Source: an uncultured Pseudomonadota bacterium (GTDB lineage Bacteria; Myxococcota_A; UBA796; SXON01). From it: DNA of 60,724 nt. The DNA is taken from contig CAIXRH010000009.1 of assembly GCA_903921785.1 (NCBI GenBank), positions 1 through 60,724 of the forward strand, in the 5' to 3' direction. A program made the translations under genes and the position numbers. The notes below the pieces were generated by a model. That model ran no database searches. It had not been told where the DNA came from and saw only the letters and a list, made by a program, of their open reading frames with translations. Positions 46,577 through 60,724 of the stretch are shown in pieces. Every line of letters begins with the position of its first letter. Positions within the stretch are counted from its first letter, which is position 1.

Positions 46577-47197
46577 ATGCTGGCCAAGGCGATGCTGAAC
46601 TTCGCGCTCCTGGGCGCGGAATGGGTGCTCTGGCTCCTCGTGGGCCTGTCCTTGGCGTGCATCGCCATCGGCCTGGAGCGCTTCATCTACCTGGAAGTGA
46701 ACCGCACGCCGGCCGGTCCGTTCGAGGCGGCCGTCGGGAAGTACCTCTCCGGGGGTGAGAAGGGCGAACTGGAAGGCGCGCTGGCCGGCCAGAAGGGCGT
46801 CGAGGCGCGCGTGATCCTCGCCGGACTCCGGGCGAGCATCGCCGAGGCGGCCCAGCACGCGATGCAGGGCACGCTGCTGTTCGAGAAGCTCCGCATGGAG
46901 CGCGGGCTCCTCGTGGTCGGCACCGTGGCGGCCACCGCGGCGTTCATCGGCCTGTTCGGCACCGTGGTGGGCATCATCGGCGCCTTCCACAACCTCAGCC
47001 TCGGCTCCGACGAAGCCGCCAAGCACGTCATGGCCAGCATCTCCGAGGCGCTCGTCTCCACGGCGTTCGCGCTCATGGTCGCGATCCCCGCGGTCGTGCT
47101 CTACAACATCCTCCAGCGCCGGGTGAAGGCGCTCGTCAACCGCATCGAGAGCCTCGCCGAGCTGGTCGTGGCGCGCATGCGCGCGGCCGGGGACTGA
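46577..47197 (+). CDS. exbB: ExbB/TolQ-family proton-channel protein
   Basis: The product is 206 residues from the ATG at 46577 (GAGGGGA upstream; a GTG at 46574 is possible). Three membrane helices are visible: about 13-36, then VVGTVAATAAFIGLFGTVVGIIGAF, and STAFALMVAIPAVVLYNIL. The conserved GLFGTVVGI and STAFAL motifs line the proton path. Works with ExbD to power TonB. First gene of a five-gene operon with short spacing or overlaps. Confidence 0.93.
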   Translation: MLAKAMLNFALLGAEWVLWLLVGLSLACIAIGLERFIYLEVNRTPAGPFEAAVGKYLSGGEKGELEGALAGQKGVEARVILAGLRASIAEAAQHAMQGTLLFEKLRMERGLLVVGTVAATAAFIGLFGTVVGIIGAFHNLSLGSDEAAKHVMASISEALVSTAFALMVAIPAVVLYNILQRRVKALVNRIESLAELVVARMRAAGD

Positions 47198-47200
47198 GCC

Positions 47201-47632
47201 GTGGCCGGCAGCAAGCTCGGCGGCGACGACGACGGGATGACCGAGATCAACATCCTCCCGTTGGTCGACATCATCCTCGTCGTGCTGATCATCTTCATGG
47301 TCACCACGTCGTACATCGTGAAGCCGTCGATCAAGCTCACCTTGCCCGATGCCGCCACCGGCGATGCCACCGAGCCGTCGTCGCTCGCGATCACCGTTCT
47401 CGCCGACGGTTCGTTGCTGCTCGACGGTCAGCCGGTCGCCGAGCCCGCGCTTCGCACCGCCGTAAAAGCCGCCCACGACAAGGACAAGAACGTGGTCTGC
47501 CTCATCGCAGGCGACAAGGACGCCCGCCACGGCGACGTGACCCACATCCTCGACCTCGTGAAGCAGGAAGGGGTGGCCAAGTTCGCCATCAACATCGAGC
47601 CCATCGCCGTCCAGGGCGGGACGCCCCCGTGA
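47201..47632 (+). CDS. exbD: ExbD/TolR-family protein
   Basis: The 143-residue protein, starting from a GTG, has the signature MTEINILPLVDIILVVLIIF, in which Asp23 is the proton-carrying residue of the single membrane helix. The periplasmic domain (about 48-140) is the usual ExbD fold with DGQPV, DKDKNVVCLIAGDKDARHGDV. It starts 3 bp after exbB and overlaps tonB by 4 bp. Confidence 0.93.
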   Translation: MAGSKLGGDDDGMTEINILPLVDIILVVLIIFMVTTSYIVKPSIKLTLPDAATGDATEPSSLAITVLADGSLLLDGQPVAEPALRTAVKAAHDKDKNVVCLIAGDKDARHGDVTHILDLVKQEGVAKFAINIEPIAVQGGTPP

Positions 47633-48396
47633 ACCCCCAACCCCACCCGGCGCAGTCGGGCTCGCTCTCGCCCTTCGGAAAGGAATCGCGGGGGCGAGGG
47701 TGGGTCGTGCCCTTGGGCATCGGACTGTCGGTGGGGCTCCACGCGCTCGCGGCAGTGATCGTGGTCACCCAGCCCGAGCAGGCGAGGCAGGCCGCCCAAT
47801 GGGTGGAGATGACGGTCCAACAACCGCCTCCCCCACCCCCGCCACCACCTCCTCCTCCGCCCGAACCGGAGAAGGAGAAGCCCAAACCCAAGCCGAAACC
47901 CGTGAAGTTCAAGGATATCACGCCCCCCACGCCCGCCCCGCCCCCCGAGGCCGCCCCCAGCAAGCCCGTGCGCAGGGTGGTCCAGGGCCTCTCCGCGACG
48001 TCGTTCGCCACCGGTTCGGGCACGGGCCTGTCCGTGCGCGCGGGCAACAGCACGACGGTCGCCGCGAGCGGCAACGGCCTGGCCATCGAGGACGCCAACG
48101 GCCCCCGCTCCTTCGCCTCCGTCACCACGCCCCCCACCTGCTCGAAACGCCCGATGATGGACGTGCCGAAGGAGGCGCAGGAAGCCGAAGTGGAAGGCGA
48201 GATCAAGGTCACCTTCGACGTCGCCGCCGACGGGCAGGTTGCCAACGTCCGGGTGCTCCGAGACCTCGGGCACGGCACGGGCGAGGCCTGCGCCGGCGCG
48301 TGGCGGAAGGTCCGATGTACCCCCGGCAAGCAGGACGGCACCCCCGTCGTGGTCACCGGCGTCCCCCAGACGTGCACCGTGAGGATCGATCCATGA
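47629..48396 (+). CDS. tonB: TonB-family energy transducer
   Basis: The 255-residue protein has a short cytoplasmic tail, one membrane helix at about 25-46 with the conserved His38, then 13 consecutive prolines and a Pro/Lys/Glu spacer spanning the periplasm. The C-terminal domain (about 170-255) matches TonB_C (VEGEIKVTFDVAADGQVANVRVLRDLG). Unusually it has several Cys residues (TCSKRP, EACAGAWRKVRCT, QTCTV). It overlaps both neighbours by 4 bp, so it is dedicated to the receptor downstream. Confidence 0.9.
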   Translation: MNPQPHPAQSGSLSPFGKESRGRGWVVPLGIGLSVGLHALAAVIVVTQPEQARQAAQWVEMTVQQPPPPPPPPPPPPPEPEKEKPKPKPKPVKFKDITPPTPAPPPEAAPSKPVRRVVQGLSATSFATGSGTGLSVRAGNSTTVAASGNGLAIEDANGPRSFASVTTPPTCSKRPMMDVPKEAQEAEVEGEIKVTFDVAADGQVANVRVLRDLGHGTGEACAGAWRKVRCTPGKQDGTPVVVTGVPQTCTVRIDP

Positions 48397-51026
48397 TCCC
48401 GCTCCTCCTCGCCCTCGCGCCCCCCGCCCTCGCCGGGGATTCTCCGCCCCCCCCGCCTGCCGACGCGCCCGCCGAAGAGCTACCGCCGCTGGTGAAGAAC
48501 CCGGAGCTTCTGCAGTTCGTGCAGGCGCCGTACCCGCCCGATGCACAGGCGGAGAAGCTCGAGGGCACGGTGAAGTTGATCCTCGAGATCGACGAAACGG
48601 GCGCCGTCACCAAGGCGGAGGTGTCCGAGGCGGCTGGCCACGGCTTCGACGAAGCCGCGGTCGAGGCGGCGAAACAGTTCAAGTTCAGCCCCGCGGAGGA
48701 CGCCACCGGGCCCGTCCCGGTGGCCATCGAGTTCGCGTACGGCTTCGTGCTCGACGCCGCGACGAAGGAAGGGGCCGTGCCTGAGGCCGCCGCGGGGGAC
48801 CAGCCCCCAGCGGAACAGCCGGTGACGCTCGACGGCGTGGTGATCGAGATGGGCACGCGCCGACCCCTCGCGGACTTCGCGATCCGCATTGAGCCCGTCG
48901 GCCTGGAGACGACGACCGACGCCGAGGGCAAGTGGGCGTTCCGAGGCCTCCCACCCGGGCCGTACACGGTCCGCGCCGTGCGCCCAGGGTACGACACCCT
49001 CGAGAAGTCCGTGGAGATCGCGGCGGGGCAGGCCACCAGCGCGCGGCTGTGGGTGCGCAACCAGTCCTACGCCGACCCCGGGATCATCGGCAGCTACCAC
49101 AAGGAGTCCGCCGACGTCACCCGGCGCACCATCACCATGGAGGAGGTCCGGCGGATCCCCGGTACGTTCGGAGACCCCATCCGTGTCGTCCAGAGCCTTC
49201 CCGGTGCAGCCCGTGCCCCGCTTGGAACCGGGCTCCTCATCATCCGCGGCTCCAATCCGTCCGACAGCCGGGTCTACATCGATGGAATGTACATTCCGTA
49301 CATCTACCACCTCGGCGGCTTCGAGTCGGTGGTCAATCCCGACCTGGTCTCCGCAGTCGACTACCTCCCCGGCGGCTACGGCCCGCAGTACGGGCGGAGC
49401 ACCGGCGGCACGGTGGACGTGACCACCCGGTCGAAGTTCCCCGATCGCAACCAGATCACCTGGTCCACCGACGCGCTCGACAGCGGCGGCGTCTGGCTCG
49501 GCAGCTTCGGCGACAAGCACCAGCACGGCATCGGCGCCGCCGCCCGCATCTCCTACATCGACGCGATCCTCCCCGCGTTCCTCGCCGACGACGGCTTCAG
49601 CGTCGTCCCCCGGTGGTGGGACTTCCAGACCAAGTACCAGTACCAGGGCGACAACCCGAACAAGTTCTCCATCCTCGCCTTCGGCTTCCAGGACACCCTG
49701 CTGCTCCACACCCCCGAGGGCTACGCCCAGGGCACCGACCAGAACACGCAGGGCGACGTCGGCACCGAGTACAACACCTACCGCCTCGGCGTCACCTGGG
49801 ACCGCAACTTCGGCACCCACTGGTCCGCCCACGTCGCGCCCTCCTTCGGCAGCGACTACGCCGCGTTGGACGTTGGCAACAGCTTCCATCTCATCCAGGC
49901 CAAGTACACCCTGGAGCTCCGCGCCGAAGCCAAGTACAAACACGACGACCACTTCAGCGCCGCCGCCGGGCTCGACTTCATCGCCGGCTGGTCCGACTTC
50001 GAGATCCAGCTGCCATTCAACCCCGCCCAACTCGCCGAGATCGACGCGCTCGCCGAACGCGATCCGTACTCCCTCTCCGGCACCGCCACCGGCTTCGGCC
50101 CCGACCCCTACGTCAACGTCACCTGGAAACCCTTCACGGACGTCGACAAGCTCTCGCTCAACGGCGGCCTGCGGATGATGTACGTCATCATCCCCGGAGA
50201 AAACGAGGTCCTCGCCTTCGACCCTCGCTTCTCCGTGCGCTGGCAGGTGGTGAAGGGCACCGTGCTCAAGGGCTCCACCGGCCTCTACCACCAGCCGCCC
50301 CAGCCGTTCCAGCAGTACCGCCCCGACGACGAGCCGGTGGAGCTCGGCGCGGAGCAAGCCTGGGCCAGCTCCGTCGGCATCGAGCAGGACATCGGCCCGG
50401 AGGTGCAGGTCGAGGTCGAGGGCTTCTACAAGGACCTCACCGGCCTCATCGTCGGCAACCGGAACTTCGGCACGATCGACGACAGTTACTTCCTCAACGC
50501 CGGCGTCGGGCGGGCCTACGGCGTGGAGGTCATCGCGCGCAAGGCCCCGGTGGGCAATCTCTTCGGGTGGATCAGCTACACGCTCAGCCGCTCCGAACGC
50601 CAGGATTACCCTGACGAAGACTGGTACCTCTTCGACTACGACCAGACCCACATCCTCAGCGCCGTGGCCGGGTACAAGCTGCCCTACGATCTCACCTTCG
50701 GACTCAAGGTCCAGTACACCACCGGCAACCCCACCACGCCCTACTCCCTCGGGGTGTACGACGTGGACCAGGACTCCTACATGGCGTTCCAGACTGGCGA
50801 CGCAAACAGCGAGCGACTCCCGCCGTATTGGGCCGTGTCTGCCAGAATTGACAAGCTGTTCACCTTCAAGGCGTGGCAGCTCTTGCTCTACGTCGACGTG
50901 ATCAACGCCCTCCACGGCGACAATCCAGAGTTTGAACAGTATAATTACGACTACACCGAGAAGACGTACTTCAAGGGACTCCCGATCATCCCGAGCCCTG
51001 GCTTCGAAGCAAAGGTGGAGTTCTGA
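48393..51026 (+). CDS. TonB-dependent receptor with N-terminal TonB-C-like domain
   Basis: The 877-residue outer-membrane receptor has signal MIPLLLALAPPALA and a Pro-rich stretch, then residues about 35-120 matching the TonB C-terminal domain (PPDAQAEKLEGTVKLILEID, AAVEAAKQFKFSPAED). A carboxypeptidase-regulatory-like domain (150-225; DGVVIEMGTRRPL), a plug (240-350; IIRGSNPSDSRVYIDGMYIP) and a beta-barrel to the end follow. The ligand is unknown. It overlaps tonB and the following lipoprotein gene. Having a TonB-type domain inside the receptor is unusual outside this lineage. Confidence 0.87.
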   Translation: MIPLLLALAPPALAGDSPPPPPADAPAEELPPLVKNPELLQFVQAPYPPDAQAEKLEGTVKLILEIDETGAVTKAEVSEAAGHGFDEAAVEAAKQFKFSPAEDATGPVPVAIEFAYGFVLDAATKEGAVPEAAAGDQPPAEQPVTLDGVVIEMGTRRPLADFAIRIEPVGLETTTDAEGKWAFRGLPPGPYTVRAVRPGYDTLEKSVEIAAGQATSARLWVRNQSYADPGIIGSYHKESADVTRRTITMEEVRRIPGTFGDPIRVVQSLPGAARAPLGTGLLIIRGSNPSDSRVYIDGMYIPYIYHLGGFESVVNPDLVSAVDYLPGGYGPQYGRSTGGTVDVTTRSKFPDRNQITWSTDALDSGGVWLGSFGDKHQHGIGAAARISYIDAILPAFLADDGFSVVPRWWDFQTKYQYQGDNPNKFSILAFGFQDTLLLHTPEGYAQGTDQNTQGDVGTEYNTYRLGVTWDRNFGTHWSAHVAPSFGSDYAALDVGNSFHLIQAKYTLELRAEAKYKHDDHFSAAAGLDFIAGWSDFEIQLPFNPAQLAEIDALAERDPYSLSGTATGFGPDPYVNVTWKPFTDVDKLSLNGGLRMMYVIIPGENEVLAFDPRFSVRWQVVKGTVLKGSTGLYHQPPQPFQQYRPDDEPVELGAEQAWASSVGIEQDIGPEVQVEVEGFYKDLTGLIVGNRNFGTIDDSYFLNAGVGRAYGVEVIARKAPVGNLFGWISYTLSRSERQDYPDEDWYLFDYDQTHILSAVAGYKLPYDLTFGLKVQYTTGNPTTPYSLGVYDVDQDSYMAFQTGDANSERLPPYWAVSARIDKLFTFKAWQLLLYVDVINALHGDNPEFEQYNYDYTEKTYFKGLPIIPSPGFEAKVEF

Positions 51027-51886
51027 TGCTGATCTTCGCCCTATTCCTCGGGTGTGACACCGTGGAGATGTCCCAGGCCTGGCAGATCGACCGTCTTCGG
51101 GTCCTCGCGGTGGCCGCCGATCCCGCCGAACCCCGCCCCGGGGACGTCGTCACCTACGATGCGCTCGTGGTCTCCCCCGCCAAGCCGCTCCTCGGCAGCG
51201 CCTGGTTCGTCTGCGACGCCGGAAGCTCCACCGACTTCGGCTGCGACATCGACCCCTCCCTGTTCGACGGCATGGACGCCGGCACCGTGGACATCGCGGC
51301 CCTGGCCGCCGCCGGGATGATCGGCTTCCTCCCAGGCTACACCCCCACCTGGACCGTCCCGACCGACTACCTCGACGGGCTCCCCGCCGAAGACCAGATC
51401 GAAGGGACCTTCGCGATGACCTACATCACCGCCATCCCCGAGGTCGCCGAGGGGGAGGAGATGCAGGAAGATGACCTCGAGATCGCCTACAAGCGGGTGC
51501 CCGTCTCGCTCTCCACCACACCGAACCACAACCCGCGCGTCGCGAGCTGGTCCATCGACGGCCTCGCGATCGAAGATGGTGCAGAAGTTCGCCTCGATCC
51601 CGGTCAGGCCTACACCATCGGCGTCGATCTCACGGAGGATTCGGTCGAGTCCTACACCTTCCACAACGAGGACGGCGAGGACGAGAGTCGCACCGAAGAG
51701 CCGTACTTTTCCTGGTATCTCCAGGAGGGGGACTTCAACCAGTCCAATACCTTGTGGCCCTACACCGAGGCCGTCTACTTCGCGCCGGACGAGCCGACGC
51801 TCACCCAGCAAAGCCTGTGGGTGGTCGTACGCGACCGCCGCGGCGGCATGGCCTGGTCGGAATTGAAGCTCCGTTTCGCGGACTAG
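51026..51886 (+). CDS. TonB-operon lipoprotein
   Basis: The 286-residue protein starts with MLIFALFLGC, a minimal lipobox signal. The mature part has an Ig-like region (LRVLAVAADPAEPRPGDVVTYDALVVSP) and a beta-rich acidic domain. Its ATG overlaps the receptor's stop (TGATG), so it is translationally coupled and likely an accessory of the receptor, perhaps a surface ligand-binding protein like SusD-type partners, though it is not SusD-like in sequence. The stop TAG shares CTAG with the convergent gene. Confidence 0.75.
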   Translation: MLIFALFLGCDTVEMSQAWQIDRLRVLAVAADPAEPRPGDVVTYDALVVSPAKPLLGSAWFVCDAGSSTDFGCDIDPSLFDGMDAGTVDIAALAAAGMIGFLPGYTPTWTVPTDYLDGLPAEDQIEGTFAMTYITAIPEVAEGEEMQEDDLEIAYKRVPVSLSTTPNHNPRVASWSIDGLAIEDGAEVRLDPGQAYTIGVDLTEDSVESYTFHNEDGEDESRTEEPYFSWYLQEGDFNQSNTLWPYTEAVYFAPDEPTLTQQSLWVVVRDRRGGMAWSELKLRFAD

Positions 51887-52272
51887 GTCCCCTTCACCCG
51901 GAACGGTTCGCTGCGAACGACGTCGAGCGCCTTGCATGCACCCAATCGCAGCGGGAGCTCCGGGGCGCAACCGGCGCCCCAGGTCATCACCGCGCGGTAC
52001 TCACCCGCCGCCAGCGGCGCCTGAGAGAGCGTGAGCGAGCCTTCGACGCGGGTCGCGGGCTTCTGCGCGGCGCAAGCTTCCCGTGGCACCGGCACCCACG
52101 TCCCCGCCTCGCGCCGTTCCCACTCCACCGGCACGCACCCGTCCACCCACGCCACGCCCGGGGCGGTGAAGGAGAGCGTGACGGCGGCATGCAGACCGAT
52201 CTCGCCGCTCGGCGCGACCAGCTTCGCGGGAGGTGTCGGCGCCGCGAGCGCGACGGCCAGGGTCAAGAGCAT
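51883..52272 (-). CDS. Secreted hypothetical protein
   Basis: The 129-residue protein has signal MLLTLAVALAA. The mature protein is a single beta-sandwich-like domain with four Cys (WVDGCVPVEW, REACAAQ, WGAGCAPEL, GACKALD), probably two disulfides. I do not recognise the family. It converges on the TonB-operon lipoprotein, and the two genes' stop codons overlap in the palindrome CTAG (51883-51886). Confidence 0.65.
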   Translation of the reverse strand: MLLTLAVALAAPTPPAKLVAPSGEIGLHAAVTLSFTAPGVAWVDGCVPVEWERREAGTWVPVPREACAAQKPATRVEGSLTLSQAPLAAGEYRAVMTWGAGCAPELPLRLGACKALDVVRSEPFRVKGT

Positions 52273-52370: not shown

Positions 52371-53258
52371 ATGAAGCCTGCCGGACGCATCCTCGATCCC
52401 TTCACGCGTGTCGCGTGCGCACTTGCTGCGCTCGGCATGCTCGGCGCGGCCCTGTGCGCGCCCTCCTCGGCCTACGCAAAGGAGAAGAACAATGCCGTAA
52501 AGGCGCTGGAGGAGTTCAACGGGAAGAAAGCTCCCGTCGATCCGATCCGCAACCGGTTCTTCCTCAAGGCGAACCGGTTCGAGATCGCCCCCGCGCTCGG
52601 GTACGTGCCGAACAACTCGTTCGCCGATGTGTACGTCGGCGGCGCGTTCCTGGCCTACCACTTCAGCGAGTCCTTCGCGGTGGAAGCCACCGTCATGTAC
52701 TCGCCGAACACGGGCAACGCCGGCATCAAGGGCCTCACCAAGACCCTGCTCGACATCGCTTGGCAGTCCGATCCCGAGACCACCTTCCAGCAGCCGATCG
52801 ACCGGCTTCAGCTGGCCACGGCGTTCAGCGCCCGTTGGTCCCCGGTGTACGGGAAGATCAACCTCATCGGTGAGGGTGTCGTCAACTTCGACCTCTACGG
52901 TACCGGTGGCGTCGGCCTGCTCGCCATCTCCAAGGACGTCGCCACCGTGAGCGATGAGTACCGCAACAGCGGTGAGGGCGATCCAGTGGCCCTGGAAACG
53001 CAGCCGGAGACCCAGTTCAGCCCCGCGGTGAACCTCGGCATCGGGCTCGACTTCTTCATCAGCCCCACCATTGCGATCAAGCTCGATGCGCGCACCATGG
53101 CGTTCGTCGGCCCCGAAGCCGACTACATCGCCGGCGACATCGACCCCACGACGAACCAGCCGCAGCACCTCGACAACGAGCTGCAGTCCGTGTTCATCAC
53201 CACCGGCGGGGTCAGCATCTTCGTGCCGAAGATGAAGCCCCGCATCTTCAACTTCTGA
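52371..53258 (+). CDS. Outer-membrane beta-barrel protein, GltA/GltB-like
   Basis: The 295-residue protein has signal sequence ...LCAPSSAYA. After NRFFLKANRFEIAPALGYVPNNSF the mature protein is beta-barrel-like (VGGAFLAYHFSESFAVEATVMYSPN, VNLGIGLDFFISPTIAIKLD). This matches the myxobacterial outer-membrane barrel family to which GltA/GltB belong. GGAG precedes the ATG. It is the first gene of a barrel-barrel-TPR-TPR-TPR operon. The Glt assignment is by resemblance and order, not by search. Confidence 0.75.
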   Translation: MKPAGRILDPFTRVACALAALGMLGAALCAPSSAYAKEKNNAVKALEEFNGKKAPVDPIRNRFFLKANRFEIAPALGYVPNNSFADVYVGGAFLAYHFSESFAVEATVMYSPNTGNAGIKGLTKTLLDIAWQSDPETTFQQPIDRLQLATAFSARWSPVYGKINLIGEGVVNFDLYGTGGVGLLAISKDVATVSDEYRNSGEGDPVALETQPETQFSPAVNLGIGLDFFISPTIAIKLDARTMAFVGPEADYIAGDIDPTTNQPQHLDNELQSVFITTGGVSIFVPKMKPRIFNF

Positions 53259-53274
53259 GCGGCAAGGAACCCAG

Positions 53275-54189
53275 ATGCTGAGCATTGCCCTCTCCCTCGC
53301 GCTCTCCGGCCAGGCTCTCGCCCAGGAGCCGGTCGCCGCCCCGCTCAACCCGGTGTTCTCGCCCTACACCCTCGGCGTGCCGACCGAGCTGACCTCCTTC
53401 GAGGTCGACACCTCGGTGGAAGACGGCACCGCCGTCGCCGACGACGACGACGACGACGCCCCCGCCAGCTCGGTGAAGTCCGAAAAAGAAGCCGTGAAGT
53501 CCGGCAAGGCCACCGCCCAGCCGGCGCCCGGCCCGAAGCGGGTCAAGAAGATCATCAAGACCGTCCCCCCGAAGACGTTCATGAAGCTCCACCGCTACGA
53601 AGCGGGGATCTCGGTCGGCTTCGTGGCCAACGACCCCTTCCTCAACCGCTACATCATCGGCGGCGTGTTCGACTACCACGCAACCGAGATCTTCGCGATC
53701 GAGGCCCAGATCGGCTACGCGCCGGTCCTCGGGCAGGGTGGTTGCGACGACCCGGACTGGAAGCCGCTCTCCTGCCAGCTGCTCACCAAGAACAGCGTGT
53801 CGCCGGACATCTCCCGCCTCACCGCCCACGGCGCGATCGGCCTGCAGTTCGCGCCGATCTACGGCAAGGTGGCCGCGGGAGACAGCATCATCGCCTTCGA
53901 CATCTACGGCACCGTCGGCCTGGGCATCACCCAGACCGAAGACGACCTCGTCGCCCTCCAGGCCGACGACGAAGCACCGGACGGCGACGCCCACCGGTCC
54001 GCCAGCGAAGTTCACCCGACCACCGTCATGGGTGGCGGAGCCCGTATCGCCTTCTCGGAGACCGTGGCCGTGCGCGCCGAGGTCAAGTCGATGACCTACA
54101 TCGAGACCGTCAAGGCCACCACCCTCGAGATGAAGAACAACCTCATCGTCCAGGCCAACGTTTCCTTCTTCTTCCCGGGGATGAAGTGA
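53275..54189 (+). CDS. Second outer-membrane beta-barrel protein, GltB-like
   Basis: The 304-residue protein has signal MLSIALSLALSGQALA. An acidic stretch DDDDDD and a Lys-rich segment (residues about 50-95) precede the barrel, which opens with HRYEAGISVGFVANDPFLNR, parallel to the first barrel's NRFEIAPALGYVPNNSF. It starts 16 bp after the first barrel and its stop overlaps the next ATG (TGATG). The two barrels are diverged paralogues and may form a pair in the outer membrane. Confidence 0.75.
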   Translation: MLSIALSLALSGQALAQEPVAAPLNPVFSPYTLGVPTELTSFEVDTSVEDGTAVADDDDDDAPASSVKSEKEAVKSGKATAQPAPGPKRVKKIIKTVPPKTFMKLHRYEAGISVGFVANDPFLNRYIIGGVFDYHATEIFAIEAQIGYAPVLGQGGCDDPDWKPLSCQLLTKNSVSPDISRLTAHGAIGLQFAPIYGKVAAGDSIIAFDIYGTVGLGITQTEDDLVALQADDEAPDGDAHRSASEVHPTTVMGGGARIAFSETVAVRAEVKSMTYIETVKATTLEMKNNLIVQANVSFFFPGMK

Positions 54190-56039
54190 TGTCGAGCTTG
54201 CTGCTCCTGGTTCTCGCCTCCCCCGCGCACGCGCTCACGTGCGATGAGGTGATGAACATGGTCAACGTGAACGTCCCCGAGTCGATCGTCGTGCAGACGA
54301 TCGAGGGTTCGGGCGACAAGTTCACCGCCGAGTTCGTTCGCTGCCTCACCAACGAAGGCGCGCCCGACGCCGTCGTCGCCGCGGTGAAGAAGCAGATCGC
54401 CCATGATTCTGGCCCGAAGGACGAGGAGCCGGCCGAGGCCGAGCCCGAGGCCAAGCCGAAGACCAAGAGCGACGAACGTCGGGACTCCTTCGAGAAGGAC
54501 ACCGAGATCGGCGCCACGAAGGTGAAGAAGGGCCGCGCGCTCGAGGACAAGGCTGAAGCCGGCGCCGCTGACGAAGGTCGCGACCCCCAGAAGCTCGAAG
54601 ACGCCATCCAGCAGTACAAGGCCAAGAAGCCCCTGTCGGCCAGCCTCGCGCTGCACGATCTGCTCAAGGACAACACCTTCCCCGACAAAGAGACGAAGAT
54701 CCTCTACTACATGGGGATGTCGCTCTACGACCTGAAGATGTACCACTCCGCTCAGTACTACTTCATCGAAGTGCTGAAGAAGGGGACCGGGAACCAGTAC
54801 TTCAAGTACGCGCTCCCCAAGCTCGTGGCGATCTACAAGCTCACGGGCGACGTGTCCGACCTCGCGAAGGTGGTCTCCAAGATCTCCCCGGATGACTATC
54901 CGAAGAGCGCGAAGAACCCGCTCTACTACCTCCACGGCGTGCAGCTGTTCGAGGACAACAACCTGTCCGAGGCCAAGAAGGCCCTGCAGCAGGTGAGCGA
55001 GTCCTCGGACTACTACATCCAGGCGACCTACCTCATCGGCGTCATCGACAACAAGCAGGGCCTGCTCAAGTCGGCGGTGAAGGCGTTCGGCGAGGTGGCG
55101 CGGGCCCAGGCCGAGGCGCCGACGCTCCAGGAAGCCCAGAAGCTCGACCGGCTGCGTGAGCTCTCGGTGCTCAACATCGCGCGTATCTACTACTCGTTGC
55201 AGCAGTACGAAGCCGCGCAGGAGAACTACCGCCTGGTGCCCCGCTCCAGCGTGTACTGGCCCGAGGCGCAGTTCGAGGAGGCGTGGACCGCCTTCATGCT
55301 CACGGACCTGAACTATACGCTCGGCGAGATCCTCACGGTCAACAGCCCGTACTACGCCGACGTCGAGTTCATCCCCGAGACCACGGTGCTGCGCGCGCTC
55401 ACGTACTTCCAGCTCTGCGAGCTGGATGACGCCGAGCGCACCCTCATGGACTTTGAGGCGACCTACGCTCCGATCCACCAGGAGCTCAAGGACGTCATCA
55501 AGACGTACTCCACGGACGAGGGGAAGGAGCTCGCGGACCAGGCGTACGAGAAGTACTTCGAAGGCAAGGGCGACACCGTGCTTCCGAAGCCGCTGTTTGC
55601 CCGCATGCTCCGCGACCAGGAGCTGTCCGGCCTCGTGGAGCACCTCGCGCTCCTCGACCAGGAGGAGCAGCTCATCGCGTCCCAGAAGTCCCAGTGGAAG
55701 AGCGCGGTCGGCGAGGACCTCACCAAGGTCATCGCGGATAGCCGTGAGCGCCTCAAGAAGCGCGCCGGCCGGTCGCTGCTCCGCAACATGTACGAGGTCA
55801 CCAAGCAGCTTGGCGACCTCATTGGGCAGTCGCAGATCATCCGCTTCGAAGTGACGGACGCCCGCCGCGCCGACTACGGCCGGAAGCTCCAGAACATCGA
55901 CCTCAAGGAGACCTCGAAGGGCCAGGACACCGACTTCGCGACCTCGCCGAAGTTCATCTACTGGCCGTTCAACGGGGAATTCTGGAAGGATGAGCTCGGG
56001 TGGTACTACTACACCGAGCAGCCCAAGTGTGAAGAGTAG
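54189..56039 (+). CDS. Periplasmic TPR protein, GltC-like
   Basis: The 616-residue protein has signal MSSLLLLVLASPAHA. The N-terminal segment CDEVMNMVNVNVPESIVVQTI is followed by a charged linker (residues about 75-130), then TPR-like helices from about 140 to 480 (YYMGMSLYDLKMYHSAQYYFIEVLKKG). It ends with an aromatic segment, WPFNGEFWKDELGWYY. This three-part structure and the position after two barrels resemble GltC of Myxococcus. It is probably exported to the periplasm. Confidence 0.75.
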   Translation: MSSLLLLVLASPAHALTCDEVMNMVNVNVPESIVVQTIEGSGDKFTAEFVRCLTNEGAPDAVVAAVKKQIAHDSGPKDEEPAEAEPEAKPKTKSDERRDSFEKDTEIGATKVKKGRALEDKAEAGAADEGRDPQKLEDAIQQYKAKKPLSASLALHDLLKDNTFPDKETKILYYMGMSLYDLKMYHSAQYYFIEVLKKGTGNQYFKYALPKLVAIYKLTGDVSDLAKVVSKISPDDYPKSAKNPLYYLHGVQLFEDNNLSEAKKALQQVSESSDYYIQATYLIGVIDNKQGLLKSAVKAFGEVARAQAEAPTLQEAQKLDRLRELSVLNIARIYYSLQQYEAAQENYRLVPRSSVYWPEAQFEEAWTAFMLTDLNYTLGEILTVNSPYYADVEFIPETTVLRALTYFQLCELDDAERTLMDFEATYAPIHQELKDVIKTYSTDEGKELADQAYEKYFEGKGDTVLPKPLFARMLRDQELSGLVEHLALLDQEEQLIASQKSQWKSAVGEDLTKVIADSRERLKKRAGRSLLRNMYEVTKQLGDLIGQSQIIRFEVTDARRADYGRKLQNIDLKETSKGQDTDFATSPKFIYWPFNGEFWKDELGWYYYTEQPKCEE

Positions 56040-56105
56040 TCCCCCTCCCCGGGAACTTGTCCAATTCTTGACTGTCTGACGCGACGCACTCCGGAGTCGT
56101 CGATC

Positions 56106-59100
56106 ATGCTTCGCCTCACTTCTCTTCGTTCGAGCATCCTTCTGGCCGTTCTGGCGGTGCCTCTTCTGGCTCCGTCCGTCGCCCACGCACAGGATCGCAC
56201 CCAGAAGACCGAGCGTCACGTGCTCAAGAGCACGGACACCACCTCGCGCGACGCCGCCCAGAAGGAACTTGAGGAGAAAGCCCACGGGGCCCGCCTCGAG
56301 TCCATCGAGCGCCTCAAGCAGCTCCTGAAGGAGACCGAGGTTGGTGGGGACACCAAGGCGGAGATGCTCCTCCGCCTCGCCGACCTCTACTTCGAAGAAG
56401 GCCGTTTCCTCTACCAGGGGGAGATGGAGACCTACCAGGAAGCCTACGACAAGTGCTTCAACACCCAGGGCTGCAAGCCCGAGGATGTGCCGCAGGAGCA
56501 CGGGCCCTCGGTCACCTGGCAGGAGAAGAGCATCAAGCTCTATCGGCAGATCCTCCAGAACTACCCGCAGTTCGTCCGTGCCGACGAGGCCACGTTCTAC
56601 CTCGGCCAGGCGCTGAGCGAGATCTCCAACGCCACGGGGGACACCAAGCGCCGTGACGAGTCCACCACCGAGCTCACCCGGCTGGTGAAGAGCTACCCCG
56701 AGAGCCGCTTCATCCCGGATGCGTGGCTGCTCATCGGCGAGTACTACTTCGACAGCAATCAGGCGATGAAGGCGCTCATGGCGTACCAGCACGCCGCCGC
56801 CTTCCGCGAGTACGAGAAGTACGCCTTCGCGAGCTACAAGCTGGCGTGGTGCTGGTACAACGTGGGCGAGTACGGCAAGGCCATCGACACGATGAAGGCC
56901 GTCGTCGAGTACTCCAACAAGCAGCAGGCGGCAGGTGCGGGCGGCAAGGCCAACATCCAGCTCCAGGACGAAGCCCTCAAGGACCTGGTCCGCTTCTTCG
57001 CCGACGCCGGCAACCTGGATGAGGCCTACGAATACTTCAGCAAGATCGGCCGCGAGGAGCTCGTGGCGGAGATGCTCAAGCGCCTCGCCTCGACCTACTT
57101 TGAGCAGGGCAAGTTCGACCAGTCGATCGAGACCTATCGCCGGCTCATCACGCAGGACCCGACGAACGCGCACGCCCCCGAGTACGAAGACTCGATCATC
57201 CAGTGCCTCACCAAGATGGGCAAGAAGGACGACACGATCGCCGAGATCGATCGCCTCCGCACCACCTACGGCAAGAGCAGCTCCTGGGCCCGGGCGAACG
57301 CGAGCAACACCGAGGCGGTGAAGTCGGCCTCGGACCTCATCGAGCGCAACCTCCGCACGGTGGCCACCAACTACCAGATCGAAGGCAACAAGCTCACCGG
57401 CGAAGCACAGAAGAAGGTCCGGTCCCTCGCCGAAGGCGCCTACGCCACCTACCTCACCGAGTACCCGGACTCCAAGTACAGCTACGACATGCGCTACGCC
57501 TACGGCGAGCTCCTGTACAAGCTCAAGAAGTTCGACAAGGCCTACGACCAGTACATGAAGGTCGTGTCGATGGACCCCAAGGGCCAGCACAGCAAGTTCT
57601 GTGCGGAGTCCGCCATCTTCGCCGCCGATGAGTTCGTGAAGAAGGACTCCAAGGCCGGCGGCGCGACGGGTGGCCCGGGCGCCAGCACCGATCCCATCGA
57701 GCTCACCGACTGGGAGAAGAAGCTCGTCGCCGCGCTCGACCAGTACGTGAAGCTCTACCCCGACGATCAGCAGAAGATCCGGGGCATGATCTACAAGGAG
57801 GCGTACCTCCTCTACAACAAGAACCAGTTCAAGGACGCGTCCGACCGGTTCCGTATCGTCATCGGCATGGACCCGAGCTCCAAGGACGCCGAGCAGGCCG
57901 CCAACCTCATCCTCGACAGCTTCACGCTGGTGAAGGACTGGGCCGACCTCAAGGAAGTCTCCAAGGCCTTCTACGACCAGAAGGGGCTCGGCTCCGACTC
58001 GTTCAAGACCGAAGTCTACGGAATCTACGAGAACGCCTCGCTGAAGATCATCGAGGAGTCCTTCAAGAAGTCGAACGACAAGGCGAAGGGCGCGGCGGAC
58101 TACTGGGCCTTCTACCAAGAGTTCCCGAAGTCCAGCAACGCAGACCTCGCGTTGAACAACTCCAGCGTGTACTACCACGACCTCGGCCGTACCCGCGACT
58201 CCATGAAGGTTCGCCTCGAGCTCATCCAGAAGTTCCCCAAGTCGAAGTACTACAAGGATCAAGTGGCGAACCTCGGGTTCGACTACGAATCCGTGGGCGA
58301 CTTCGACTCCGCGGCGACCTGGTACGAGAAGCTCTACGGAATGGACACGGCGCACCCGGGCGCCAAGGACGCGATCTTCTCCGCGGCCCTCTTCCGCAAC
58401 TCCCTTGGTCAGTGGGAGCAGTCGATCACCGACTACCGCGCGTACACCAAGACCTTCGCGGCAGAGCCGAACATCAACGGCGTGAACCTCGAGATCGCGA
58501 AGATCTTCGAGGCCCACGGCAAGTACGCGGATGCGAGCACCATCTACCTCGGCGTGTTCACCCCGCCGGCGAAGGTTGCGAAGGGCGCTCCGCCGCCGCC
58601 GGTCTACTCGTTCGACGAGCAGATGTTCTCCCGTCTGCACTACGGCCTGATGATGGACAAGGTCGGCCAGGGCGCCAAGGTCACCCAGCACTGGAAGGAC
58701 TCGGTCGCCTTCTACGAGAAGTCCAAGGCGGCTGGCGCCACCGGCGACGTGGCCAAGGAAGCCGTCGCCCAGATGATGTTCATCCTCGCGGAGCCCGAGT
58801 ACACCGCCTACATGGCGATGAAGGTCAACGGCGCCGGGGACAAGAAGCTGCCCCAGAAGCAGGTCGACAAGCTGCTCAAGGAGCAGCTGGTGGGCAAGGC
58901 CAAGGCCATCGTCGCCCTCGAAGCGACGTACAACAAGATCATCGGCACCGGCGCCGGTGTGTGGGGTCTCGCCAGCCTCGTGCGGCTCGGGCGCGCCTAC
59001 GAAGACTTGGCGGACACCCTGCTGAACTCCTACGTTCCGACGTACCTCACCGAGGATCAGAAGGAGATCTACCACATGGCCCTTGAGGACAAGGCCTACC

Positions 59101-59306
59101 AGCCCAAGCTCAAGGCCCAGGCTGCGTACCAGGCCGCGCTCGGCAAGGCATTCGACCTCAGCATCTACAACGACGAGACCGCGATCGCGACCCGTCGCCT
59201 CGGCGTGCTGGCTCCGGACGAATACCCCGGCCTCTTCGAGACCATCCCGGCGCCGCGCTACTCGTCGCCCTCCGTCACTTCCGTGTCCTTCGAGAAAGAG
59301 CCCTAA
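56106..59306 (+). CDS. Large TPR protein, GltD/AgmU-like
   Basis: The 1066-residue protein has signal ...LLAPSVAHAQ. Nearly all of it is TPR-like helix pairs (LLRLADLYFEEGRFLYQGEM, ATFYLGQALSEISNATGDTK, YKLAWCWYNVGEYGKAIDTM, and others). It matches the layout of AgmU/GltD, a large periplasmic TPR protein of the Myxococcus gliding machinery, though slightly shorter. It lies 66 bp after the GltC-like gene. Probably a periplasmic scaffold. Confidence 0.75.
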   Translation: MLRLTSLRSSILLAVLAVPLLAPSVAHAQDRTQKTERHVLKSTDTTSRDAAQKELEEKAHGARLESIERLKQLLKETEVGGDTKAEMLLRLADLYFEEGRFLYQGEMETYQEAYDKCFNTQGCKPEDVPQEHGPSVTWQEKSIKLYRQILQNYPQFVRADEATFYLGQALSEISNATGDTKRRDESTTELTRLVKSYPESRFIPDAWLLIGEYYFDSNQAMKALMAYQHAAAFREYEKYAFASYKLAWCWYNVGEYGKAIDTMKAVVEYSNKQQAAGAGGKANIQLQDEALKDLVRFFADAGNLDEAYEYFSKIGREELVAEMLKRLASTYFEQGKFDQSIETYRRLITQDPTNAHAPEYEDSIIQCLTKMGKKDDTIAEIDRLRTTYGKSSSWARANASNTEAVKSASDLIERNLRTVATNYQIEGNKLTGEAQKKVRSLAEGAYATYLTEYPDSKYSYDMRYAYGELLYKLKKFDKAYDQYMKVVSMDPKGQHSKFCAESAIFAADEFVKKDSKAGGATGGPGASTDPIELTDWEKKLVAALDQYVKLYPDDQQKIRGMIYKEAYLLYNKNQFKDASDRFRIVIGMDPSSKDAEQAANLILDSFTLVKDWADLKEVSKAFYDQKGLGSDSFKTEVYGIYENASLKIIEESFKKSNDKAKGAADYWAFYQEFPKSSNADLALNNSSVYYHDLGRTRDSMKVRLELIQKFPKSKYYKDQVANLGFDYESVGDFDSAATWYEKLYGMDTAHPGAKDAIFSAALFRNSLGQWEQSITDYRAYTKTFAAEPNINGVNLEIAKIFEAHGKYADASTIYLGVFTPPAKVAKGAPPPPVYSFDEQMFSRLHYGLMMDKVGQGAKVTQHWKDSVAFYEKSKAAGATGDVAKEAVAQMMFILAEPEYTAYMAMKVNGAGDKKLPQKQVDKLLKEQLVGKAKAIVALEATYNKIIGTGAGVWGLASLVRLGRAYEDLADTLLNSYVPTYLTEDQKEIYHMALEDKAYQPKLKAQAAYQAALGKAFDLSIYNDETAIATRRLGVLAPDEYPGLFETIPAPRYSSPSVTSVSFEKEP

Positions 59307-59329
59307 GCCGGCTTCGGAGAGAGAGTTCC

Positions 59330-60724
59330 ATGTTCCGTACGCTCCTCATCGCGCTCGTCCTCGTCGGCTGCGGCGAGAAGAAGCCCGTCGAGAACGACCC
59401 CACCCAGCAGGTGCAGGTCGATCCGAAGGCCGAATTCGCGGCCGGGCTCAAGCTCCTCGGCGACGGGTCGGGCAAGTCCGACCTCGCCGGAGCCCTCGCC
59501 AAGTTCGAGTCCGCCACCACGGCAGACCCGACCTACACCAAGGCCTGGTTCAACGCCGGGTACGCCGCCGAGCACCTCGGCGAGCTCAAGAAGGCCGAGA
59601 CCTACTACAAGAAGGCCATCGAGCTCAAGGCTGACTACCCCGCCGCGGTGTACAACCTCGGCGCGGTGCTCCAGGCCGAGGGCAAGGCCGCTGAAGCGGT
59701 GCCCGTCATCCAGGGCTACGTCGACGGTCACCCCGACGACATCGAGGCCCGCAACACGTTGGTCGACGCGCTGGCTGCCGCCGGCCAGTTCGACGACGCG
59801 ATCGCCCAGGCCCACGAGGTCCTTGCCCGCGATCCGAAGAACGTGAGCGCGTACCGCAACCTGTCCCGCGTGTACTACGCGAAGGGTGACTACGCGATGA
59901 GCACGCTCGCCGCGGAGAAGGCGCGTACGCTCAACGACACCGACCCCGGCATCTACAACAACATGGGCGTGACCTACCTCGCCCAGAAGAACGAGCCGGC
60001 GGCGATCGTTCAGTTCAACACGGCCTTGAAGGTCGACCCGAGCAACCTCGAGGCGAACCTCAACCTCGGCTACGTGGCGCTCAACTCGGGCGACTACGGC
60101 CTCGCGCTGAAGTGCTTCGAGGCGATTGCCAAGGACCACCCGGGCAACGTCGACATCCAGATGGGCTACGCCATCGCGCTGCGCGGCAACAAGCAGTACG
60201 AGCAGGCCGAGACCATCTACGACGATCTGCTCAAGCGCGACCCGAAGAACAAGACCCTCACGATCAACGCGGTGATGCTCCACGAGCACTACACCAAGAA
60301 GTTCGAGAAGGCCGGCGCGATCCTGGACGCCCACCTCAAGGCCTCGACCGGCGTATACTCGCCGGACGACTCGATCTTCAAGCTCAAGGACGAGATCAAG
60401 AAGCTTGAGGAAGAGGAGAAGGCGCGGCTCGCCAAGAAAAAGGCGGATGAAGAGGCCGCGGCGCTTCGCAAGAAGCGCGCCGAAGAAGCCCTCGAGAAGA
60501 TGGCCAAGGACATCGCCCAGATGGAAGGCGACCTCGCCAAGTACAACGAGTGCCTCACCACCACCCGGCCCGACGTCCTCGAGCTCGTGCCGATGGTCAT
60601 CGAGCAGGCCAAGCCGGTGGTCACCGAGAAGGACACCGAGATGGTGAACGACGTGCAGACCTTCGTGGACGACGCGAAGACCCAGCTCGCCGACGCTGTC
60701 GCCGGTTGCGCCGCCGCCGCACCC
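59330..60724 (+). CDS. TPR lipoprotein, GltE/AglT-like (cut by window end)
   Basis: The open frame starts at an ATG with GGAGAGAG upstream and runs 465 residues to the window edge without a stop. The lipobox is LVLVGC. About eight TPR units follow (AWFNAGYAAEHLGELKKAET, AAVYNLGAVLQAEGKAAEAV, GIYNNMGVTYLAQKNEPAAI), then a Lys/Glu coiled coil at about 355-400. AglT/GltE of Myxococcus is likewise a TPR lipoprotein. It is the fifth gene of the block, 23 bp after the previous one. Confidence 0.8.
   Translation, partial: MFRTLLIALVLVGCGEKKPVENDPTQQVQVDPKAEFAAGLKLLGDGSGKSDLAGALAKFESATTADPTYTKAWFNAGYAAEHLGELKKAETYYKKAIELKADYPAAVYNLGAVLQAEGKAAEAVPVIQGYVDGHPDDIEARNTLVDALAAAGQFDDAIAQAHEVLARDPKNVSAYRNLSRVYYAKGDYAMSTLAAEKARTLNDTDPGIYNNMGVTYLAQKNEPAAIVQFNTALKVDPSNLEANLNLGYVALNSGDYGLALKCFEAIAKDHPGNVDIQMGYAIALRGNKQYEQAETIYDDLLKRDPKNKTLTINAVMLHEHYTKKFEKAGAILDAHLKASTGVYSPDDSIFKLKDEIKKLEEEEKARLAKKKADEEAAALRKKRAEEALEKMAKDIAQMEGDLAKYNECLTTTRPDVLELVPMVIEQAKPVVTEKDTEMVNDVQTFVDDAKTQLADAVAGCAAAAP

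Follow-up and report, generated by a model that had tools for sequence, protein, structure and literature searches.

What the Glt/Nfs-type machine of myxobacteria did before it served gliding or spore coat assembly is the question behind the interest in the gene cluster described here. The window, i.e. the whole stretch of 60,724 nucleotides that was analysed, is the entire contig C9 of a 7.48-Mb draft genome of 362 contigs. A first-pass annotation had proposed that the last five genes of the window form a merged run resembling the gliding complex Glt. We consider it probable (about 0.7) that these genes, together with three further ones (A to H), encode the envelope-spanning part of an Agl-Glt/Nfs-type machine that is Nfs-like in composition and a third branch by phylogeny. 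The relevant features of the window are as follows.

46577 to 51886, + strand: cassette of ExbB, ExbD, TonB, TonB-dependent receptor and lipoprotein (PF01618, PF02472, PF03544)
51883 to 52272, − strand: gene of a small secreted protein, separating the TonB cassette from the cluster, conserved in relatives
52371 to 53258, + strand: barrel 1, NfsA/GltA-like (TIGR04565, 91.7 bits; start at 52371 or 52437)
53275 to 54189, + strand: barrel 2, NfsB/GltB/GltA-like (TIGR04565, 89.1 bits)
54189 to 56039, + strand: GltC/NfsC homologue, periplasmic TPR protein (NF033756; start at 54186, GTG, or 54189, ATG)
56106 to 59306, + strand: GltD/NfsD (AgmU) homologue, secreted TPR protein of 1066 amino acids (alignment to M. 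xanthus proteins)
59330 to 60724, + strand: GltE/NfsE (AglT) homologue, TPR lipoprotein (NF033758; cut by the contig end)

In the profile search both barrels lie above the curated cut-off of 60 bits for OMP_myx_plus (TIGR04565), and they are related to each other (28% identity, E = 2e-25). Barrel 1 is predicted to form an eight-stranded OmpA-like barrel (pLDDT 75), with OmpA and OprF as the closest solved folds in a structure search, and is 24–27% identical to M. xanthus NfsA and GltA. The third gene matches the NCBIfam GltC model NF033756 (E = 1e-72; 245.8 bits, under the equivalog cut-off of 450), and the fifth, which bears a lipobox-like LVGC, matches the GltE model NF033758 (E = 2e-39; 136.1 against an equivalog cut-off of 225). 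Judged by these scores, the two proteins are homologous to GltC and GltE, yet outside the curated equivalogs. The GltD homologue matches general TPR models and no specific model in the profile search; alignment to M. xanthus GltD and NfsD gives 27–28% identity (E about 1e-103; NfsD 27%, E = 2e-103), and alignment to a protein of the M. xanthus gltD cluster gives 33% (E = 3e-86). Identity of the large subunits to their Myxococcus counterparts is only 23–35%. Profile matches and alignments support homology with the Glt proteins of M. xanthus, and the first description of the five genes as two related barrels, two periplasmic TPR proteins and a TPR lipoprotein is confirmed.

The GltC homologue carries a conserved C-terminal motif, WPFNGE(Y/F)W.DELG (alignments A1 and A3), and, at its N terminus, a helical domain of about 60 amino acids specific to the class (window 54189–54420, DEVMNMVNVNVP...), a stretch that is absent from Myxococcus GltC and NfsC. 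Stretches resembling this domain are found in other proteins of the genome, on contigs C131 and C45. Structure prediction yields a TPR alpha-solenoid for GltC; a structure search with this model returned generic TPR solenoids only, and a sequence search of both alignments against solved structures gave nothing past generic TPRs.

All five genes lie on one strand with gaps of 16, 0, 66 and 23 bases (5′ to 3′); a sigma-70 and terminator scan of the intergenic region gave no match. As a complete unit the five-gene set is ruled out, since the contig end at 60724 falls within gltE and contig C274 continues the set. In frame 3, C274 begins with an Ala-Pro-rich gltE tail that runs to a stop and resembles the GltE tails of relatives. 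Extension past 60724, as first proposed, thus leads to homologues of GltF, GltG and GltH:

198 to 3280 of contig C274, after the gltE tail: F (CglF/GltF), G (GltG) and H (CglE/GltH)

The 93-amino-acid product of F matches CglF/GltF (E = 2e-15), the 611-amino-acid FHA protein matches GltG (E = 4e-96), and the barrel matches CglE/GltH (95.8 bits, above the cut-off of 70). We infer the adjacency of C9 and C274 from the gltE tail and from relatives, whose single contigs show the identical order. Given that C274 opens with the gltE tail, followed by gltF, gltG and gltH, the unit reads as an eight-gene operon (A-B-C-D-E-F-G-H); window and C274 together thus hold the Nfs-type set of two barrels and C to H in a single run. 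After gltH follow a lipoprotein-like protein with ASH/HYDIN-type domains and then rplC. This lipoprotein-like protein with its immunoglobulin-like domains (L242:3329–4471) is conserved in the interval between gltH and rplC across the order.

The proteins D and E also match general TPR models, among them YbgF, MamA and LapB, which favours a rival reading of the cluster as an outer-membrane biogenesis set made up of unrelated TPR proteins and barrels. Against such an origin stand the matches specific to GltC, GltE, GltG, CglE/GltH and OMP_myx_plus, which occur in nfs order; it is already largely refuted by the gene order with the GltG and CglE matches, and we regard it as extremely unlikely.

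Homologues of GltC are present in 38 of the 38 genomes searched (genus, family and order). Eleven loci fetched from the order show barrel-barrel-C, followed by D-E-F-G-H where the contig permits. Within the class, genome G046 has the full A-H set, and in G181 the contig is cut past D. The gene order comparison across Myxococcota that had been suggested therefore shows the order to be kept in the order loci examined and in G046. Since GltC homologues are universal in this set and the genes follow one another in the same way in the order genomes that were compared, chance is excluded as the source of the five-gene arrangement. In other families of the phylum, C-D-E-F-G is followed by large TPR proteins, and the barrels are not beside C.

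Glt-like genes also occur in other settings. A barrel and a GltC-like gene form a pair by themselves, without D-H, on contig C14 (L063:8924–11169), and a probable lipoprotein of 462 amino acids on C74 matches the GltD profile (L241:9620–11008; E = 8e-43) with no other glt gene alongside. An 835-amino-acid protein (L245:7230–9737) combines a match to a marine sortase-target family with a GltG-like C-terminal domain. A record titled Comamonas sp. KCTC 72670 (L126) holds a Myxococcaceae-type glt barrel-barrel-C locus and is probably misnamed or contaminated.

For comparison with known systems, the named genomes M. xanthus AM003, Archangium lansinium and Anaeromyxobacter oryzae were used. The first-pass annotation placed the Myxococcus counterparts in separate clusters. 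This is correct for glt, which is split in M. xanthus (barrels and C on one contig, D-E on another), but overlooks nfsA-H, the sporulation operon named in 2010 (PMC2875238) that serves spore coat assembly (PMC2875238, PMC3858216). On M. xanthus contig C31 (locus L235), A-B-C-D-E-F-G-H form one run, with lengths that fit nfsA-H in Table 3 of PMC2875238. Anaeromyxobacter likewise has A-H in a single run, and the next gene encodes a very large TPR protein that is presumably GltI. The single run is hence not unusual, as "merged" had implied, for nfsA-H has these eight genes in identical order and the Anaeromyxobacter glt genes are also united (PMC2875238, PMC3169522). Luciano et al. (2011) had described nfsA-H as a single-run paralogue, together with a multi-gene cluster in Bdellovibrio, and proposed that ancient linkages were lost in glt and that an ancestral core of unknown function existed (PMC3169522).

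The closest likeness is to NfsA-H (MXAN_3371–3378), which shares with the window cluster the eight components, their order, the single run and the absence of GltI, GltJ and GltK from the cluster. The two differ in that identity is 23–42% for A-G, that they form separate clades, and that the window cluster has the extra N-terminal domain of GltC and a TonB cassette upstream. The spore coat role is known for M. xanthus Nfs; for the window cluster there is no evidence of sporulation. The Glt systems of M. xanthus (GltA-K) and Anaeromyxobacter share homologous A-H with the window cluster, and Anaeromyxobacter also the A-H order; no GltI-like gene follows H, and GltI, GltJ and GltK were not found in the cluster (window with C274, and order loci). 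Among the proteins tested, the GltJ model was matched solely via a shared C-terminal domain. The third known system is the core complex of GltC-D-E-G with AglRQS (Group B of Luciano et al., 2011). Its core proteins are common to the window cluster, which adds the barrels, F and H and is without a linked motor. A Group B-type core cluster with its own motor is found in the same genome on contig C210.

A further likeness to nfs is rplC (ribosomal protein L3), which is solitary downstream of A-H in this order, with no other ribosomal protein genes beside it (L242:4584–5237), and adjoins nfs upstream in Myxococcus and Archangium (L235:17851–18525). It is single-copy in 10 of 11 genomes checked and in pieces in G039. 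We rejected this adjacency as proof of nfs orthology and take it as only suggestive, because rplC flanks the cluster on the other side than in nfs and is away from it in G046, Anaeromyxobacter and others.

Phylogenetic analysis separates the window cluster from the gliding system. In the tree of C and D, the order and class genomes together with the cluster on contig C74 of G039 form one clade, and single-gene trees of C, D, E and G set the window cluster apart from the Glt side. The AU test was run on an alignment of C and D (1466 columns); the very divergent M. xanthus C209 cluster was left out because its inclusion pulled Nfs towards it. A grouping of the window clade with the strict Glt clade of Myxococcus, Archangium and Anaeromyxobacter was rejected (AU p = 7e-63), which argues against the initially noted resemblance to the gliding complex where this implies membership of its clade. 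Joining the window clade with Nfs gave p = 0.27, and the two alternatives 0.55 and 0.53 (range over branch orders 0.27–0.59); SH-like support for the same joining was 0.96 in the D-only tree and 0.77 for C+D+E, without a significant joining in the AU test. Genome G039, from outside the class, has one Glt-side cluster and one that groups with the window clade, which makes the two paralogues. We interpret the window cluster as a third old lineage alongside Glt and Nfs, with the order of the three left undecided by the trees. Gene order on the tree suggests that the single run, being widespread, is probably ancestral, so that the reading of a merged cluster runs backwards.

Three AglRQS-type R-Q-S triples are encoded in the genome, on contigs C127, C171 and C210 and all off the cluster; other Glt/Agl homologues thus accompany it, as the first-pass annotation would lead one to expect. 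The C127 motor groups with M. xanthus C111 (aLRT 99.9) and the C171 motor with M. xanthus C323 (aLRT 99.6), while the C210 triple sits in the core GltC-D-E cluster. The M. xanthus C111 triple (245/158/194 amino acids) is probably the true AglRQS, given its closeness to the AglR/Q/S lengths of 245/162/194 (PMC3169522). It had been remarked that the cluster is not next to AglRQS. The motors do lie elsewhere, but this carries no weight, as glt and nfs of M. xanthus are also not beside aglRQS. In M. xanthus, AglRQS powers both Glt and Nfs via contacts of AglR with GltG and NfsG; AglR binds NfsG (PMC3858216).

The genome encodes homologues of GltA to GltH, a motor of the AglR type and a homologue of MglA (50% identity), and Luciano et al. 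(2011) speculated that bacteria with AglRQS and GltA-G are potential gliders (PMC3169522). A single-run Glt machine for gliding, powered by AglRQS and steered by MglA, would fit this content. Gliding in Myxococcus requires MglA, and the homologue in the genome keeps gliding among the possibilities. However, the search for MglA found none in either G024 or G046, two genomes that keep the cluster; together with the rejected Glt clade and the lack of GltI, GltJ and GltK in the cluster, this makes gliding unlikely, if with a modest chance.

The cluster had been placed downstream of a TonB-type operon. This cassette is real, but the opposite-strand gene at 51883–52272 intervenes. Its small product has no Pfam match, is 33–48% identical in relatives and occupies the same site in G046 and G181. 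Upstream of the cluster, the cassette is present in all order genomes whose sequence reaches far enough, with the exception of G024, and also in G046 and G181, which represent two other families of the class. Such linkage may suggest that A-H, the ExbB-ExbD-TonB motor and the receptor form one transport system that does not use AglRQS. Apart from the intervening gene and the missing linkage in G024, this is countered by the neighbouring IMP dehydrogenase and CoA transferase, which are retained as well, so that the region is conserved as a whole, and by the paralogous cassettes on C132 and C340 of the same genome (three with C9), where the lipoprotein accompanies the receptor. The window ExbB itself is TonB-like, with 23% identity to the C210 AglR-type protein, and groups weakly with the ExbB of the paralogous C132 cassette (aLRT 71). 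We therefore judge a joint system of this kind very unlikely; tree and identity also rule out the window ExbB-ExbD pair as AglRQS and place it in the TonB cassette. The cassette is a separate transcription unit outside the machine as described, and its functional coupling to A-H is possible, if weakly supported. Close to the N terminus of its receptor (48393–51026) there is a TonB C-terminal domain, as seen in MxcH matches, and the lipoprotein follows the receptor.

Returning to the Agl-Glt/Nfs-type reading, the cluster most likely encodes a proton-driven, envelope-spanning surface transporter of the Agl-Nfs kind. By analogy with Myxococcus, an unlinked AglRQS proton-channel motor, for which C127 is the best candidate and whose pairing with A-H we infer, would push the inner-membrane FHA protein GltG. 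Force would then be relayed by GltD, GltE and GltF in the periplasm to GltC and to the pair of OmpA-like barrels in the outer membrane, and a surface-attached polymer, the presumed cargo and probably a polysaccharide, would be moved along the cell. In M. xanthus, GltA and GltB stabilise each other and also GltC, and NfsA and NfsB do likewise with NfsC (PMC4488436). In view of the Nfs composition and gene order (A-H, with no GltI, GltJ or GltK in the cluster), a role in arranging a coat or capsule appears likelier than gliding.

An ancestral envelope role of the machinery, as suggested at first pass, is possible; Luciano et al. (2011) had put the idea forward earlier (PMC3169522). The A-H arrangement is already known from Myxococcus; here it belongs to a distinct, old branch that a whole bacterial class has retained. 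With this clade, a class of uncultured Myxococcota provides a full A-H operon that has no motor linked to it and dates from about the time of the Glt/Nfs split; its conservation offers a comparison point for the function of the components. A further implication is that the scattering of glt genes in Myxococcus is probably derived. We consider it quite unlikely that the cluster is a third functional branch, neither gliding nor spore coat, in which the TonB receptor cassette and A-H cooperate, e.g. by exporting a surface polymer and depositing it afterwards. If true, this would show the job of the ancestral machine.
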